Shown in pieces: positions 5,683-12,219 of a stretch of DNA of 64,000 nt. The translations under genes were made by a program, and so were the position numbers. The notes beneath the pieces are model-generated. The model saw nothing but the letters and a program-made list of their open reading frames with translations. It ran no database searches and was not told where the DNA came from. This stretch comes from Nocardioides sp. HDW12B (GTDB lineage Bacteria; Actinomycetota; Actinomycetes; Propionibacteriales; Nocardioidaceae), in contig NZ_CP049867.1 of the NCBI RefSeq assembly GCF_011299595.1, positions 3,658,001-3,722,000 of the forward strand, in the 5' to 3' direction. The first letter of the stretch is position 1. Every line of letters starts with the position of its first letter.

Positions 5683-6555
5683 ATGCCCGAGCTGCCCGAG
5701 GTCGAGGCGCTGGTCCAGGACCTGCGACGCCGACTGGACGGTCGCGCCATCGCGCGCGTCGACCTGGCCGCCTTCGCCGCGCTCAAGACCTACGACCCGC
5801 CGCTGTCGGCGCTGCACGGCACGATGGTCGACGGCGTCGAGCGGCACGGGAAGTTCCTCGACATCGACGCCTCCGGCATCCACCTCGTGGTCCACCTGGC
5901 GCGCGCAGGCTGGATCCGCTGGCGCGACGAGGTGCCGAAGACCCCGCCGCGGCCGAGCAACAAGTCGCCTATCGCCGCGCGCATCGTGCTCGACGACGAC
6001 TCGGGCCTCGACCTCACCGAGGCGGGCACCAAGAAGAGCCTCGCGATGTACGTCGTCACCGACCCGGCCCAGGTGCCCGGCGTCGAGCGTCTCGGCCCCG
6101 ACCCGCTCGACGACGCCTTCACCATCGAGGTCCTCGAGCAGATCCTGCGCGACGCCGGCCGCGCCCAGGTCAAGGGTGTGCTGCGCCAGCAGTCGATCGT
6201 CGCCGGCATCGGCAACGCCTACTCCGACGAGCTGCTGCACGCCGCGAAGATGTCGCCGTTCAAGCCCGCGCTCTCGATCGCCGAGGAGCCGGAGGCGCTG
6301 CAGACCCTCTACACCGCCATTCGCGAGGTCCTGGGCGCGGCCGTCGAGCGCTCCTCGGGCCTCGCGGCGGCCGACCTCAAGGGCGAGAAGAAGTCGAACC
6401 TCGCCGTCCACGCGCAGACCGGCAAGCCCTGCCCGGTCTGCGGAGACACGGTCCGCGAGGTCTCCTTCGCCGACTCGTCCCTGCAGTACTGCCCCACCTG
6501 CCAGACGGGCGGCAAGCCGCTCGCCGACCGCCGGATGTCCCGCCTGCTCAAGTGA
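5683..6555 (+). CDS. Fpg/Nei family DNA glycosylase / AP lyase
   Basis: The 290-residue protein is a base-excision repair enzyme that removes oxidised bases and cuts the strand by beta-elimination. It has the catalytic N-terminus PELPE exposed after Met removal, conserved Lys57 (RHGKFL), the helix-two-turn-helix VAGIGNAYSDELL at 173-185, and a C-terminal zinc finger with Cys250, Cys253, Cys270 and Cys273. The length is normal. Whether it prefers 8-oxoguanine or oxidised pyrimidines cannot be decided from the sequence. ATG at 5683 follows TAGGAT by 6 nt without a ribosome site, so it is probably leaderless. It is convergent with the phosphotransferase gene, overlapping by 8 nt. Confidence 0.92.
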   Translation: MPELPEVEALVQDLRRRLDGRAIARVDLAAFAALKTYDPPLSALHGTMVDGVERHGKFLDIDASGIHLVVHLARAGWIRWRDEVPKTPPRPSNKSPIAARIVLDDDSGLDLTEAGTKKSLAMYVVTDPAQVPGVERLGPDPLDDAFTIEVLEQILRDAGRAQVKGVLRQQSIVAGIGNAYSDELLHAAKMSPFKPALSIAEEPEALQTLYTAIREVLGAAVERSSGLAAADLKGEKKSNLAVHAQTGKPCPVCGDTVREVSFADSSLQYCPTCQTGGKPLADRRMSRLLK

Positions 6556-7837: not shown

Positions 7838-8554
7838 TCAGGAGACCGCGGCCGGCACCGATCCGGGAGCCGGCGCTGCGTGGACGCCGCCGCCGACCCC
7901 GAGCTCCTCGGCGGCCGAGACCACCAGCCCGCCGATCATGAACGCGGTGATCGCCGCGACCAGCGTGGCGGTCGACAGGTCGGGGATGAAGCGGCGCGCG
8001 CCGGTCACCGGACCGGACGCGTGGTAGCCGTGGGTGAGGGCGTGGCCCTTGCCGCGCCGGAGCAGGTGCCGGTTGACCGGGTAGGCGGCGAAGAAGGCCG
8101 CGGTCAGCGCGATCATCATCGCCACCCAGAACACCGGGTTCACCAGACCGGCGTCCATCGCGCCGGGGATGAGAGCCATCACGAGGTTGTCCACCAGCTC
8201 CATCGTCGCGATCGACAGGGTGTCGGCGGCGAGCACCACGGCGAGGGCGCTGCCCAGGCCGAGTCCCGCCCGCAGCAGCGGCAGCGTCGAGAGCGCGTAG
8301 CCGAAGAGGAAGGCCAGGCCCACCGCCAGCACGATCGTCCAGCCGGTGCTCAGCCCGATCGCGGTGCCGATGACGAGACCGAGGATCTCGCCGATGGCAC
8401 ACCCGGTGAGGCAGTGCAGCGTGGCGCTCAGCGCCATGGTGTTCACCCCGTCGTCGGACCCGTGCCCGGCGTGGTCGGGGTGGTCGGGGTGGTCGGGGTG
8501 CTCGACAGCGTGGTCGGCGGGGTGCTGGTGCTCAGGGTGCGACGTCGCGTGCAT
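7838..8554 (-). CDS. DUF4396 membrane protein with His-rich N-terminus
   Basis: The 238-residue protein has about 35 N-terminal residues with ten His (for example HPDHPDHPDHAGH), suited to metal binding. Around six hydrophobic helices follow. The C-terminal part NPVFWVAMMIALTAAFFAAY leads to PVNRHLLRRGKGHALTHGYH, the DUF4396 signature. A GAAGGAG ribosome site precedes the ATG. Upstream is a textbook promoter (TTGACG, 17 nt, TACCTT on the minus strand) with a CsoR/CstR-type palindrome inside it, so it is probably induced with the neighbouring sulfide-detoxification genes. The biochemical role is unknown; membrane transport or metal/sulfur handling is only a guess. Confidence 0.8.
   Translation of the reverse strand: MHATSHPEHQHPADHAVEHPDHPDHPDHAGHGSDDGVNTMALSATLHCLTGCAIGEILGLVIGTAIGLSTGWTIVLAVGLAFLFGYALSTLPLLRAGLGLGSALAVVLAADTLSIATMELVDNLVMALIPGAMDAGLVNPVFWVAMMIALTAAFFAAYPVNRHLLRRGKGHALTHGYHASGPVTGARRFIPDLSTATLVAAITAFMIGGLVVSAAEELGVGGGVHAAPAPGSVPAAVS
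8471..8499. repeat. 9-bp tandem repeat coding for His-Pro-Asp units
   Basis: Three near-exact copies of GTGGTCGGG lie in tandem in the N-terminal part of the DUF4396 gene. On the coding strand they give repeated His-Pro-Asp, so repeat number sets the number of His residues without breaking the frame. Confidence 0.75.
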
Positions 8555-8583
8555 GGCCGTGCTCCTTCGGTGGATTCTCCACC

Positions 8584-8612
8584 AAGGTACCCCCAGGGGG
8601 TATATGCGTCAA
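8584..8612 (-). promoter_or_regulatory. promoter of DUF4396 gene with CstR/CsoR-type operator
   Basis: On the minus strand TTGACG (8607-8612) and TACCTT (8584-8589) are separated by exactly 17 nt. The perfect 15-bp palindrome TACCCCCAGGGGGTA (8588-8602) lies in the spacer and overlaps the -10 box. Its C-tract/G-tract form is that bound by CsoR-family repressors, and it resembles the two sites at 9650-9699 next to the CstR-like gene. Confidence 0.75.
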
Positions 8613-8628
8613 TCGCGGTCCAGACGCC

Positions 8629-9294
8629 TCAGGCCGGGACGCTCCGGCCCCGCTCGACCAGCCACCGCGCCGCCGGGTAGCCGGTGAGCAGCCCGAGCAG
8701 GATCCCGAGCTGCATGAGGAACCAGAAGCTGCCCTCGGTCGCCGGCGGCATCAGCTCGTTGTAGTGCAGCACCACCATCCAGCCGCCCATGCCGACGTCG
8801 AAGGCCAGCACCGTGAGGACCGCTGCACCCGCGGCGCGTGCGAGTGGCGGACGCCGCCCGGCACCGTGGGCGCGACCCGCGAGCAGCTCGTAGCCGAGCA
8901 GGAGGGCGACAGCGAGGACCCCGATGACGATGATCATCACCCACAGGTCGATGCCCGCGATGGTCAGGCCCGAGGCGATCACGAGCGGTACGCCGACCAG
9001 GTGGGCGACCGCCGAGGCGCCACCACCCGGCAGGCCGACCTCCGCCGGCGACGGTTCCGAGTCGCGCGTGGCGTCGGCCGTGCGGGCGACGTGGCGGCGG
9101 TGCAGGACCACCGCGGCCGGGCCCAGGTAGAGCGCCGCGGCGACCCACACCAGGTCGGCAGCCACCGAGCCGTGCCGCCGACCGCGGGCGACGTCCACAG
9201 TGATCACGACGGCGCTCACGACGGCCAGCACGAGGAAGATCCAGGCGATCGGCGTGACCCAGTCGGGGACCCGGTTCACCATCTGCATGTCCAT
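8629..9294 (-). CDS. second DUF4396-type membrane protein
   Basis: The 221-residue protein has about six hydrophobic helices. The end GMGGWMVVLHYNELMPPATE, followed by FWFLMQLGILLGLLTGYPAARWLVERG, is the DUF4396 pattern, so it is a diverged paralogue of the protein at 7838-8554. It lacks the His-rich extension. It lies 33 nt downstream of the CstR-like gene on the same strand and can be cotranscribed from the operator-controlled promoter at about 9641-9670; a TAGCAT box 8 nt before the ATG may add an internal promoter. The function is unknown. Confidence 0.7.
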   Translation of the reverse strand: MDMQMVNRVPDWVTPIAWIFLVLAVVSAVVITVDVARGRRHGSVAADLVWVAAALYLGPAAVVLHRRHVARTADATRDSEPSPAEVGLPGGGASAVAHLVGVPLVIASGLTIAGIDLWVMIIVIGVLAVALLLGYELLAGRAHGAGRRPPLARAAGAAVLTVLAFDVGMGGWMVVLHYNELMPPATEGSFWFLMQLGILLGLLTGYPAARWLVERGRSVPA

Positions 9295-9327
9295 GTCGGC
9301 AGATGCTACGAGCGCCCTCCCAGGTGC

Positions 9328-9594
9328 TCAGGCCAGCGACAGGAAGAGCTTCTCCATCTTCGCGGCGTCGACCGGGTCGAGGGAGCCGTCGTTCTCGGTC
9401 ATGCACTGCTGCAGCCCGGTCGCCACGATGGCGTAGCCGCTGCGGCTCAGCGCCTTGTTGACCGCGGCGAGCTGGGTCAGCACCTGCTCGCAGGAGGAGC
9501 CCTCCTCCATCATGCGGATGACGCTGCCGAGGTGACCGTGGGCGCGCTTCATGCGCGTGATGATCGCCTTGATCTCGGTGGGCTCGAGCTCCAT
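9328..9594 (-). CDS. cstR: CstR-like persulfide-sensing repressor (CsoR/RcnR family)
   Basis: The 88-residue four-helix protein belongs to the DUF156/CsoR family. Cys35 (SSCEQ) and Cys64 (LQQCM) are 29 residues apart, as in CsoR and CstR. The His that copper-sensing CsoR has four residues before the second Cys is Gly60 here, so the copper site is incomplete. The Cys-only pair is the hallmark of CstR, which forms di- to tetrasulfide cross-links with reactive sulfur species and then leaves DNA. Neighbouring persulfide dioxygenase and TauE genes support this assignment. An AGGACA ribosome site precedes the ATG. Two matching palindromes lie in the divergent promoter. Confidence 0.85.
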   Translation of the reverse strand: MELEPTEIKAIITRMKRAHGHLGSVIRMMEEGSSCEQVLTQLAAVNKALSRSGYAIVATGLQQCMTENDGSLDPVDAAKMEKLFLSLA

Positions 9595-9640
9595 GTCTGT
9601 CCTGCTCTCCTGCGGGTGGTGGGACGTCGGCAGGTCCTCA

Positions 9641-9667
9641 ACTGTACATCCCCCCGGGGGGTTGTGC
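9641..9667 (-). promoter_or_regulatory. cstR promoter with operator 1
   Basis: The 12-bp palindrome CCCCCCGGGGGG (9650-9661) lies in the spacer between TTAGCA (minus strand, about 9665-9670) and TACAGT (9641-9646), 18 nt apart. This matches the arrangement at the DUF4396 promoter and implies autorepression of the CstR-like gene. Confidence 0.65.
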
Positions 9668-9681
9668 TAACGTCTTCGTCA

Positions 9682-9699
9682 TAACCCCCCGGGGGGTTA
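9682..9699. promoter_or_regulatory. CstR operator 2, upstream of the persulfide dioxygenase gene
   Basis: TAACCCCCCGGGGGGTTA is a perfect 18-bp palindrome, centred 35 bp from operator 1 and 47 bp before the dioxygenase start. The likely -10 for the plus strand overlaps its right edge (TAATCC), so binding would block transcription of the detoxification operon. Confidence 0.75.
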
Positions 9700-9746
9700 A
9701 TCCGCACTGCCGCTGACACCGCCCGACCCCGAGAGGACCGACCCGC

Positions 9747-11168
9747 ATGAGCCTGACCATCGTCCCCGTCGAGACCCCGACCCTGGGCGACCGCAGCTAC
9801 CTCGTGCACGACGGCGAGGTCGCCGTCGTCGTCGACCCGCAGCGCGACATCGACCGCGTCACCGACCTGCTCGCCGAGCACGACGTCCGCCTCACCCACG
9901 TCTTCGAGACCCACCTCCACAACGACTACGTCACCGGTGGCTTCGCGCTCGCGGAGGCGACCGGAGCGGCGTACGTCGTCAACGGCGCCGACGAGGTCTC
10001 CTTCGACCGGACCCCCATCGCCGACGGGGAGACCGTCGCGGCCGGCCGCCTGCGGATCACCGCGCTGGCCACGCCGGGCCACACCTTCACCCACCTCTCC
10101 TACGCGCTGGGCGAGGTCGACGAGGTCGGCGAGGGGGCCGAGCAGGTCGGCGTCTTCACCGGCGGCTCGCTGCTCTTCGGCGCCACCGGCCGCCCCGACC
10201 TGCTCGGCGCCGAGCACACCGACGCGCTGGTCCGCCACCAGCACGCCTCGGCCCAGCGGCTCGCGGAGGTCCTGCCCGACGACGCCGGCGTCTTCCCGAC
10301 CCACGGCTTCGGCTCGTTCTGCTCCGCCACCCAGTCCGACGCGACCGCGTCCACGATCGGGCGCGAGAAGGAGGTCAACCCGGTCCTGACCCAGGACGAG
10401 GAGACCTACGTCCGCGAGCTGCTCGACGGCCTGGGCGCGTGGCCGGCCTACTACGCCCACATGGCCCCGGCCAACGCCGCCGGCCCCGCCGCCCCCGACC
10501 TCACCCCGCCGCACGTCGCCGACGCCGAGGAGCTGCGCCGCCGCATCGAGGCCGGCGAGTGGGTCGTCGACCTGCGGAACCGGACCGCCTTCGCCGCGGG
10601 CCACGCGCCCGGCACGCTGAACTTCGGCCTCGACGGCGGCTTCGTGACCTACCTCGGCTGGCTCATCCCGTGGGGCACCCCGCTCACGGTCCTGGGCGAG
10701 AGCGCCGACGACGTGGCCACCGCCCAGCGCGAGCTCGTCCGGATCGGCATCGACCGGCTCGAGGCCCAGGCCGTCGGCGGCCCCGAGGACTGGACCGTCG
10801 GCGGGCGCGACGAGGTCGTGTCCTTCCCGACCGCGACCTTCGCCGACCTGGCCCAGGTCCGTCACCACCGCGAGGTCGTCGTGCTCGACGTCCGCCGCGC
10901 CGACGAGCACGAGACTGCCCGCATCGCCGGGGCCGTCAACGTGCCGCTGCACGAGCTCGTCGCGCGGGTCGACGACGTACCCGCGGGCGAGGTCTGGGTG
11001 CACTGCGCCGGCGGCTACCGGGCCTCGGTCGCCGCCTCGGTCCTGCACGCCGCCGGGCGGACGCTCGTCGCGATCGACGACAGCTTCGCCCACGCCGAGG
11101 AGGTCGGGCTGCACCTGGTCGGCCCCGAGACCGACACCGACGACACCGCCGACGGCTCGGCGGCCTGA
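9747..11168 (+). CDS. persulfide dioxygenase with two rhodanese domains (CstB-like)
   Basis: The 473-residue protein begins with an ETHE1/CstB-type metallo-beta-lactamase domain: ETHLHND with His56, His58 and Asp60, the iron ligands expected at His112 (ATPGHTFTHLSY) and Asp151 (GRPDLLG), and PTHGFGSFC. Residue 61 is Tyr, not the usual His, a common variant in this subgroup. The first rhodanese domain (VVDLRNRTAFAAGHAPGTLN, about 270-345) has no active-site Cys. The second (about 360-460) has Cys420 in CAGGYRAS. The expected role is oxidation of low-molecular-weight persulfides to sulfite, with sulfur transfer by the rhodanese. A GAGAGGA ribosome site precedes the ATG. It is the first gene of an operon with the TauE exporter. 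Confidence 0.9.
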   Translation: MSLTIVPVETPTLGDRSYLVHDGEVAVVVDPQRDIDRVTDLLAEHDVRLTHVFETHLHNDYVTGGFALAEATGAAYVVNGADEVSFDRTPIADGETVAAGRLRITALATPGHTFTHLSYALGEVDEVGEGAEQVGVFTGGSLLFGATGRPDLLGAEHTDALVRHQHASAQRLAEVLPDDAGVFPTHGFGSFCSATQSDATASTIGREKEVNPVLTQDEETYVRELLDGLGAWPAYYAHMAPANAAGPAAPDLTPPHVADAEELRRRIEAGEWVVDLRNRTAFAAGHAPGTLNFGLDGGFVTYLGWLIPWGTPLTVLGESADDVATAQRELVRIGIDRLEAQAVGGPEDWTVGGRDEVVSFPTATFADLAQVRHHREVVVLDVRRADEHETARIAGAVNVPLHELVARVDDVPAGEVWVHCAGGYRASVAASVLHAAGRTLVAIDDSFAHAEEVGLHLVGPETDTDDTADGSAA

Positions 11169-11173
11169 GTCCC

Positions 11174-11992
11174 GTGACCTCCCTCGCGCTCGCCCTCGTC
11201 GCGGGCGCCCTCATCGGCCTGAGCCTGGGGGCGCTCGGCGGCGGCGGCTCCATCCTCGCCGTGCCGGTGCTCGTCTACCTGCTCGACCAGTCACCGGCCC
11301 AGGCCACCACCGGGTCGCTGGTGGTGGTCGGGCTGACCTCGCTGCTGGCCGCCGCCACGGCGCACCGCCAGGGCACGGTGCTGCTAGCCCGCGGCCTCAC
11401 CTTCGGGGTCGTCGCCATCGGCGGAGCAGCGCTGGGGGCCCTGGCCTCGGCGCACGTCCCGGAGCCTGTGCTCATGGCCGCCTTCGCGCTGCTGCTCCTG
11501 GTCGTCGGCGGGGTCATGGTCACCCGGCTGGTGCGCGGTCGGGGGTCCGACCGCGACACCCGCCCCATCCTCGACGACCCGATCATCACCGTCAGCCCCA
11601 CCTTCTTCTGCAACTGCCCGCAGGCGCTCAAGGTGCTCGTCACCGCCACCGTCGTCGGCCTGCTGACCGGTTTCCTCGGCGTCGGCGGTGGCTTCCTCGT
11701 CGTGCCCGCGCTCGTGCTGGCCCTCAAGGTGCCCATGACCCACGCCGCCGGCACGTCGCTGGTGGTCATCACGATCACCAGCGCGGCCGCGCTCGTCGTA
11801 CGCGCCGGGGCCGGGGTGCAGCCCGACTGGGGCGTCGTCGCGGCGCTCACCGTGGCCTCCGTGCTCGCCGCCGTGGTCGGGGCCCGCGTCGCCGCCCGCG
11901 CCTGTCCCACCCAGCTGTCCGCGGCCTTCACCGGCCTCGTGCTCGTCGTCGCTGCCGGCACCGCCGCGCAGGCCCTCCCCGCCGTCGTCTGA
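11174..11992 (+). CDS. TauE/SafE (TSUP) family sulfite/organosulfur exporter
   Basis: The 272-residue membrane protein has about eight helices and the two internal family repeats, each with a Gly-rich turn (GALGGGGSILAVPVLVYLL and GFLGVGGGFLVVPALVLAL). A central loop carries FFCNCPQALK, an unusual cytosolic Cys pair. In cst operons TauE exports sulfite or related species made by the dioxygenase. GTG at 11174 is 5 nt after the previous stop, so it is cotranscribed and probably coupled. Longer upstream reading would run inside the dioxygenase gene. Confidence 0.88.
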   Translation: MTSLALALVAGALIGLSLGALGGGGSILAVPVLVYLLDQSPAQATTGSLVVVGLTSLLAAATAHRQGTVLLARGLTFGVVAIGGAALGALASAHVPEPVLMAAFALLLLVVGGVMVTRLVRGRGSDRDTRPILDDPIITVSPTFFCNCPQALKVLVTATVVGLLTGFLGVGGGFLVVPALVLALKVPMTHAAGTSLVVITITSAAALVVRAGAGVQPDWGVVAALTVASVLAAVVGARVAARACPTQLSAAFTGLVLVVAAGTAAQALPAVV

Positions 11993-12048
11993 CCACCTCA
12001 CCTGCACACCACCACCCACCACCATCCCACCCGAGAGGAACCACCCCC

Positions 12049-12219
12049 ATGTGCCGTCCCACCCCCTGCCGGACCTGCGGCAACACCACCTGGGCCGGCT
12101 GCGGCCAGCACGTCGCCCAGGTCAGGGCCGCCGTCCCCGCCGACCAGTGGTGCCCCAGTCACGAGACGACCGAGAAGGCACCCGGCAGCGGCTTCTGGAG
12201 CCGCGTCACCGGGCGCTGA
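12049..12219 (+). CDS. small Cys-rich protein (56 residues)
   Basis: The ATG follows CCGAGAGGAACC, a good ribosome site, and the reading frame gives 56 residues with CRPTPCRTCGNTTWAGCGQH at the start and QWCPSH further on. Six Cys and two His suggest a zinc ribbon or a thiol-reactive site. Similar short proteins starting MCRP with TCG-TTWAGCGQH are common in actinobacteria and are unnamed. It lies 56 nt after the TauE gene in the same direction and no terminator is visible between them, so it may be the third gene of the sulfide operon. A role in persulfide or metal handling is only inferred. Confidence 0.75.
   Translation: MCRPTPCRTCGNTTWAGCGQHVAQVRAAVPADQWCPSHETTEKAPGSGFWSRVTGR

Follow-up and report, generated by a model that had tools for sequence, protein, structure and literature searches.

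A DUF4396 membrane protein of Nocardioides sp. HDW12B as a probable member of the CsoR-controlled copper stress response

Which signal controls the two genes for DUF4396 membrane proteins that lie next to a persulfide-type regulator in Nocardioides sp. HDW12B? We analysed a 64-kb stretch of DNA (the window, C1:3658001–3722000 of the one-contig 4.19-Mb genome), for which a preliminary description had tentatively placed both genes in the regulon of a CstR-like regulator, possibly with a role in sulfur or metal handling. Our analysis indicates that one of them (class A) is likely to encode a membrane protein of the copper stress response, controlled by CsoR and lowering free copper by export or by sequestration in the membrane. 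The genes and families named in the preliminary description were all recovered by the Pfam search:

7838–8554, minus strand: DUF4396 class A, a short form with a His-rich N-terminus and HCLTGC, the proposed copper-handling membrane protein (PF14342, 144.7 bits, E = 3.1e-42)
8629–9294, minus strand: DUF4396 class B, behind cstR, without HCxxxC and with a conserved Met/His stretch near GMxGWMxxLHxNxxMPP in the alignment (PF14342, 69.4 bits, E = 5.6e-19)
9328–9594, minus strand: CstR-like regulator of the CsoR family, with two Cys and with Gly at the copper-CsoR His ligand position (PF02583, E = 6e-20)
9747–11168, plus strand: persulfide dioxygenase (PDO)–rhodanese fusion of the MBL–rhodanese type (PF00753 and PF00581; phmmer matches 3tp9, 3r2u, 4ysb and ETHE1 4chl)
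11174–11992, plus strand: TauE/SafE sulfite exporter-like protein (PF01925, E = 1.5e-40)

On the minus strand the order is thus cstR-like, class B, class A, with the PDO–rhodanese and TauE genes divergent from cstR. Both DUF4396 genes exceed the PF14342 gathering cut-off of 27 bits, and a whole-genome search returned no DUF4396 matches other than these two. The CsoR family likewise has two matches in the genome, the regulator of the window and that encoded at C1:3936630–3936872. The latter carries C-x24-H-x3-C, is followed by copZ and copA and has the sequence TACCC-N5-GGGTA (hereafter the copper box) at C1:3936920; its best NCBIfam match is RicR (E = 3.6e-41), whose 139.7 bits are below the curated cut-off of 175. 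The regulator in the window reads C-x24-G-x3-C instead, with the two sensor Cys in place and the His ligand absent. These Cys and His positions have ligand roles in the CsoR family, and in the regulator of the window Gly replaces His, as in persulfide sensors.

Operators and promoters in the window

The copper CsoR operators of Streptomyces lividans are TAC-X9-GTA inverted repeats with C/G-tracts, and when each of these bases was swapped at the two ends no binding could be detected any longer (PMC3902906); the persulfide sensor of S. coelicolor has the site ATACC-N6-GGTAT (PMC7533328); and the copper and sulfur CsoR paralogs of Thermus show little or no cross-binding of their sites (PMC10318464). 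The sites relevant here are as follows:

8588–8602, no strand: predicted copper-CsoR operator TACCCCCAGGGGGTA (TAC-X9-GTA), 15 bp long, odd-centred and bounded by TAC and GTA, one of exactly three in the genome and fitting the rule of PMC3902906
8584–8612, minus strand: putative class A promoter with TTGACG (8612–8607), N17 and the weak -10 TACCTT (8589–8584); the operator overlaps the spacer and the -10
9649–9662, no strand: candidate CstR-type operator, copy 1, inside the cstR promoter, even-centred with AACCC/GGGTT-type ends and imperfect at the cstR-proximal end
9682–9699, no strand: candidate CstR-type operator, copy 2, an even-centred, perfect 18-bp palindrome TAACCCCCCGGGGGGTTA; copy 1 is 35 bp away

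The three palindromes of the preliminary description (8588–8602, 9650–9661 and 9682–9699) are all present at the stated coordinates, and their strict forms are rare: the copper box and AACCC-N6-GGGTT were each seen once in the window, where 300 first-order Markov resamplings predict 0.007 occurrences of each per 64 kb. The looser pattern ACCCCCNGGGGGT with two mismatches was not above chance (15 seen, 9.35 expected). They had been treated as one class, which does not agree with their geometry: 8588–8602 is odd-centred with TAC/GTA ends, whereas the other two are even-centred with AACCC/GGGTT ends, and the sites at cstR/PDO read AACCCCCCGGGGGG(A/T)T twice, 35 bp apart, without TAC-X9-GTA. Across the 4.19-Mb genome, the copper box is found exactly three times (the reversed control, 0), in front of csoR-copZ-copA, of a YHS/HMBD P-ATPase gene and of DUF4396 class A. 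Exact AACCC-N6-GGGTT is also found three times, one copy being that in the window and the other two having no continuous C/G-tracts. We reject one regulon for all three palindromes on this operator geometry together with the genome-wide counts. On sequence grounds we assign 8588–8602 with high confidence as a predicted copper CsoR operator.

The promoters, which had been called recognisable, can be read as TTGACG-N17-TACCTT for class A and as TTAGCA-N18-TACAGT (9670–9641) for cstR, the -10 of the latter recurring in CstR relatives; the class A -10 is poor, however, and neither promoter exceeded the threshold of a consensus promoter scan. The S. lividans CsoR regulon (csoR, copZA1 and copZA2) resembles the arrangement proposed here in its TAC-X9-GTA sites with C/G-tracts, its sensor family and its copZ-copA targets; the term DUF4396 does not occur in that paper (PMC3902906).

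DUF4396 genes across genomes

A search of 196 genomes of the same bacterial family, our own included, at E = 0.001 found DUF4396 in 113 of them. We took 120 stretches, 104 around high-scoring matches and 16 around low-scoring ones, counted double-covered genes once and placed two high-scoring matches (L067 and L093) with class B, to which they are closer by BLAST sorting; the sample comprised 103 class A genes (our own included) and 19 others (class B). Left out were nine high-scoring matches (the second G108 copy, G137, G177, G055, G114:C7, G191, the third G087 copy, G058 and G002), the partial match G042:C215 and five matches below the cut-off.

In 70 of the 103 class A genes and in none of the 19 class B genes, the exact copper box is found in the 450 bp that precede the core; at the rate of our own genome (3 per 4.19 Mb), and with the kinship of the genomes uncorrected, about 0.03 class A boxes would be expected by chance. 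The reversed motif and the N4 and N6 versions with TA ends were not found in front of any of the 103, nor was ACCC-N6-GGGT, which precedes a single class B gene, by position most likely that of the window. Among 100 distinct class A upstream sequences, TAC-X9-GTA was present in 73 and TAC-X8-GTA in none, and a script that also demanded a GC-rich spacer counted the copper box in 68 and the CstR type in one. Among the 33 class A genes without the exact box, eight directly follow copA (L024, L028, L029, L031, L035, L042, L049 and L116), one follows csoR (L136), several have near boxes (e.g. L071, L054, L058, L092 and L107) and three (L023, L032 and L113) are truncated by the end of their contig. 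All 25 CsoR genes examined near DUF4396 (our own included) encode C-x24-H-x3-C, and of 22 distinct sequences upstream of such C-H-C regulators, 16 have the copper box and none has a site of the CstR type.

The neighbour tally, which covered open reading frames (ORFs) of 80–520 aa picked by GC3 and excluded large ATPases, showed DUF305 to be the commonest Pfam family among 98 ORFs adjoining class A (10); FPG accounts for 6 and DUF326 for 2. In the window an FPG-like ORF, recognized by eye, is found near class A at 5683–6555, perhaps marking a conserved chromosomal spot with FPG neighbours elsewhere. CopM (DUF305) and Csp/DUF326 proteins are, like DUF4396, copper-linked accessory proteins and recur as its neighbours; unlike DUF4396, they are not integral four-helix membrane proteins. 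CopM is a periplasmic, Cu(I)-binding protein that confers resistance, and the term DUF305 is used in its paper (PMC4335983). Among 14 class B neighbours scanned (ten loci), three are copper-linked, namely a multicopper oxidase, a DUF305 protein and a YHS/HMBD ATPase, the last with a copper box near the start of its gene.

Outside the family survey, we inspected the best 80 of at least 503 relatives in named loci, 78 of them with a readable core (some Nocardioides repeat genomes of the family survey). By hand count, 40 of these 78 carry the exact copper box, including loci of Mycobacterium, Terrabacter, Intrasporangium, Zhihengliuella, Saccharopolyspora, Lentzea and Streptomyces; TAC-X9-GTA is present in 51 and TAC-X8-GTA in one. 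DUF4396 extends to Saccharibacteria, proteobacteria, cyanobacteria and haloarchaea as well. In four of the seven loci of the Saccharibacteria group (L198, L200, L202 and L207), a CsoR gene with C-x24-H-x3-C stands right behind DUF4396, followed by a DUF305-like gene in L198 and L200 (by Pfam) and in L207 (by eye); these compact operons come from metagenome-assembled minimal genomes, and the stretches that hold them have no CopA match. No CsoR match was found in the stretches of L191, L192 and L194, and the L192 DUF4396 protein is fused to an N-terminal HMBD.

We read twelve plasmid neighbourhoods, taken from 44 plasmid records with a match and having incomplete gene tables; seven of them (Kineococcus, S. 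clavifer, Haloarcula, Salinigranum, Chroococcidiopsis, Bradyrhizobium and, with a weaker case, Methylobacterium) have copper-linked genes no more than 5 kb away. The gene order is DUF305-CsoR-HMA-ATPase-DUF4396 in Kineococcus and DUF4396-copper oxidase-P-ATPase in Chroococcidiopsis, and DUF4396 accompanies a four-helix copper protein on the Streptomyces plasmid. The passages of a Kineococcus copper proteome paper found by plasmid and locus terms do not mention the DUF4396 gene. On a 2.5-kb plasmid of Staphylococcus casei (L293), the DUF4396 protein is the sole listed gene.

The persulfide unit and class B

The cstR, PDO and TauE genes probably form a persulfide unit apart, with a candidate operator of their own. 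Among the 30 loci returned for the regulator of the window (our own included), AACCC-N6-GGGTT, one mismatch being allowed, is found upstream of ten cstR genes (L258, L260–L262, L268, L269, L271, L272, L274 and the window at 9640–9700) and the copper box upstream of none. Each of the ten has a second, sometimes weaker copy 32–37 bp away, which in L268 is odd-centred and represents the sole ACCC-N5-GGGT of the set; after most of the pairs comes TTGTACAGTT, a stretch in which the -10 may lie. The remaining 20 have no CstR-type site within about 200 bp, and the sequence there looks coding by eye. These paired sites are candidate operators of the CstR subgroup represented in the window. In three loci (L230, L231 and L237) whose CstR is not among the 30, ATACC-N6-GGTAT was seen by eye in front of PDO, so the AACCC/GGGTT ends appear to belong to the subgroup of the window; both persulfide-type forms differ in spacing from the copper box. 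We relied on this CstR-centred search, as one centred on PDO had limited value: the motif filter skipped 9 of the 30 loci, and in many of the rest PDO apparently lies behind another gene.

The gene set in the window is of the same kind as the persulfide circuit of S. coelicolor (ScCsoR, PDO, rhodanese and TauE), from which it differs in the fusion of PDO with rhodanese, in the class B gene behind cstR and in having AACCC-N6-GGGTT at cstR where the published S. coelicolor site is ATACC-N6-GGTAT (PMC7533328). A 56-aa Cys-rich ORF behind TauE (12049–12219), for which Pfam and NCBIfam scans gave no match, may be part of the persulfide operon.

Class B follows cstR, as had been described, on the same strand after a gap of 33 bp with no terminator-like site between them. 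Of the two DUF4396 genes, the earlier placement in the CstR regulon can hold only for class B, which probably shares the cstR transcript here and may be under CstR control, although none of the other 29 CstR loci has this arrangement: a DUF4396 gene within 1.5 kb of cstR was found in 1 of the 30 loci, that of the window.

The DUF4396 protein and its proposed role

Residues invariant in all 103 class A proteins include H47, C48, C52, D111, M118, E119, D122, N123 and H171, and HCxxxC is present in all of them; H175 is found in 102 and H178 in 97. The nine residues named are also kept in a set of 32 sequences, other phyla among them, whereas H175 and H178 are not. Class B lacks HCxxxC and has conserved Met and His in the alignment. 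A compact homolog gave a confident four-helix model (pLDDT 91.8, pTM 0.82), and the class A protein of the window is predicted to have one further helix (195–220). Foldseek comparison of the compact model with PDB gave 0 matches at E = 0.001 or better, with the same outcome for BFVD; the full-length model (pLDDT 78) had no PDB match at E = 0.001, and the best PDB sequence match had an E-value of 0.19. Mean Lys/Arg counts are 1.07 at 92–101 and 3.04 at 160–180, compared with about 0.01 in the two other loops, a distribution that, by the positive-inside rule, would mean a cytoplasmic location for the N-terminus, for the HCxxxC end and for the region of H171. The P1B-type ATPase CopA, of the same proposed regulon, also has conserved Cys in its membrane part; DUF4396 has no ATPase domains, and Pfam, PDB sequence and fold searches found no relation between the two. 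The literature searched by DUF4396/PF14342, which leaves most subscription papers outside, assigns no function to DUF4396, and its sole mention there is of a DUF4396 protein beside a metal-resistance cluster.

Copper spacing, the TAC/GTA ends, the survey counts and the insulation of the Thermus paralogs put the class A gene on the copper side. At low copper, the Cys-His-Cys CsoR encoded elsewhere with copZ-copA would sit on TACCCCCAGGGGGTA over the -35/-10 spacer and block the gene. Binding of Cu(I) would release CsoR and induce class A along with csoR-copZ-copA and the second copper-type ATPase. Cu(I) would then probably be taken at the cytoplasmic entrance by HCxxxC of helix 1, aided by the His-rich tail and His171/175/178, and could pass along helix 3 (Asp111, Met118, Glu119, Asp122 and Asn123) outward or to a partner such as DUF305/CopM. 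The outcome would be less free copper, through export or membrane sequestration. A copper-handling role of class A is very likely in our view, which supports the earlier hunch of an unrecognised transporter or metal-handling partner, the metal being copper.

Several observations weigh against this assignment. Ten of the 33 boxless class A genes (L022, L034, L051, L069, L079, L091, L094, L100, L105 and L111, with L022 following a DUF326 gene) show no box by eye and no CsoR or CopA beside them, the exact box is absent from 38 of the 78 named loci, and 5 of the 12 plasmid neighbourhoods list no copper gene in their incomplete tables. Not all members have the His-rich tail (four or more His in 52 of 103 N-termini, with start sites guessed), and the predicted topology of the N-terminus comes from charge counts. 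The literature covered by the above search holds no expression, binding or transport data for DUF4396. Co-regulation is no proof of copper transport, and class A might work as a chaperone or in redox reactions or repair. One such possibility, which we regard as a realistic if doubtful alternative, is a copper-induced non-transporter, i.e. a membrane Cu(I) buffer, chaperone or copper-enzyme assembly factor serving DUF305, Csp or multicopper oxidase partners. The small helical bundle without an energy-coupling domain, the copper-binding proteins and copper oxidases among the neighbours and the His-rich tails of many members would all fit this role, although the polar and acidic invariant residues of helix 3 seem more typical of a permeation path.

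A link to sulfur has been considered in two forms. In 7 of 75 genomes with both, a CstR-type and a DUF4396 gene are no more than 20 kb apart (G000, G073, G150, G057, G065, G138 and G121 by hand tally of the listed matches; six without our own), where a rough estimate gives about one by chance, so there may be some sulfur connection. Two named loci hold DUF4396, CstR and PDO: L209 (Saccharopolyspora endophytica), with csoR-copZ-copA, DUF4396, CstR, PDO and TauE matches in 12 kb, and L175 (Mycobacterium sp.), with DUF4396, CstR and two PDO-like genes in one stretch. Together with the position of class B 33 bp behind cstR, with class A next, and the C/G-tract palindrome before class A, this closeness favours the original proposal of a persulfide regulon comprising both DUF4396 genes. 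We nevertheless consider that proposal very improbable: AACCC-N6-GGGTT precedes 10 of 30 cstR genes against 1 of 100 class A genes, the copper box precedes none of the former, the 8588–8602 site has copper-CsoR spacing and ends, and no persulfide genes are listed in the 12 plasmid neighbourhoods (incomplete tables). Of the 30 CstR loci, that of the window is the one case with DUF4396 within 1.5 kb, although in G073 a lower-ranked CstR-like gene from outside the 30 is convergent beside a class A gene, which itself bears the copper box. It is only slightly less improbable that class A answers both signals, with CsoR and CstR cross-binding its operator in a joint copper–sulfur defence unit, as the closeness above rough chance and the combined sets of L209 might suggest; the operator geometries are distinct and the Thermus copper and sulfur paralogs are insulated (PMC10318464). 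Copper and persulfide defence genes may tend to share islands, which could explain the earlier misreading.

With the copper assignment of class A, a membrane family that is widespread but an orphan acquires a function open to test, and the csoR-copZ-copA paradigm probably gains a new component. As a tentative extension, to which we give rather less than even weight, DUF4396 proteins may be new, phylum-crossing small Cu(I) exporters or permeases with a PDB-unmatched four-helix fold and HCxxxC entry, and DUF4396, CsoR and DUF305 may make up a complete three-gene copper defence in some minimal-genome Saccharibacteria. Within one bacterial family, a simple spacing rule parts copper from persulfide sites of CsoR-family proteins, which aids the annotation of these easily confused regulators.

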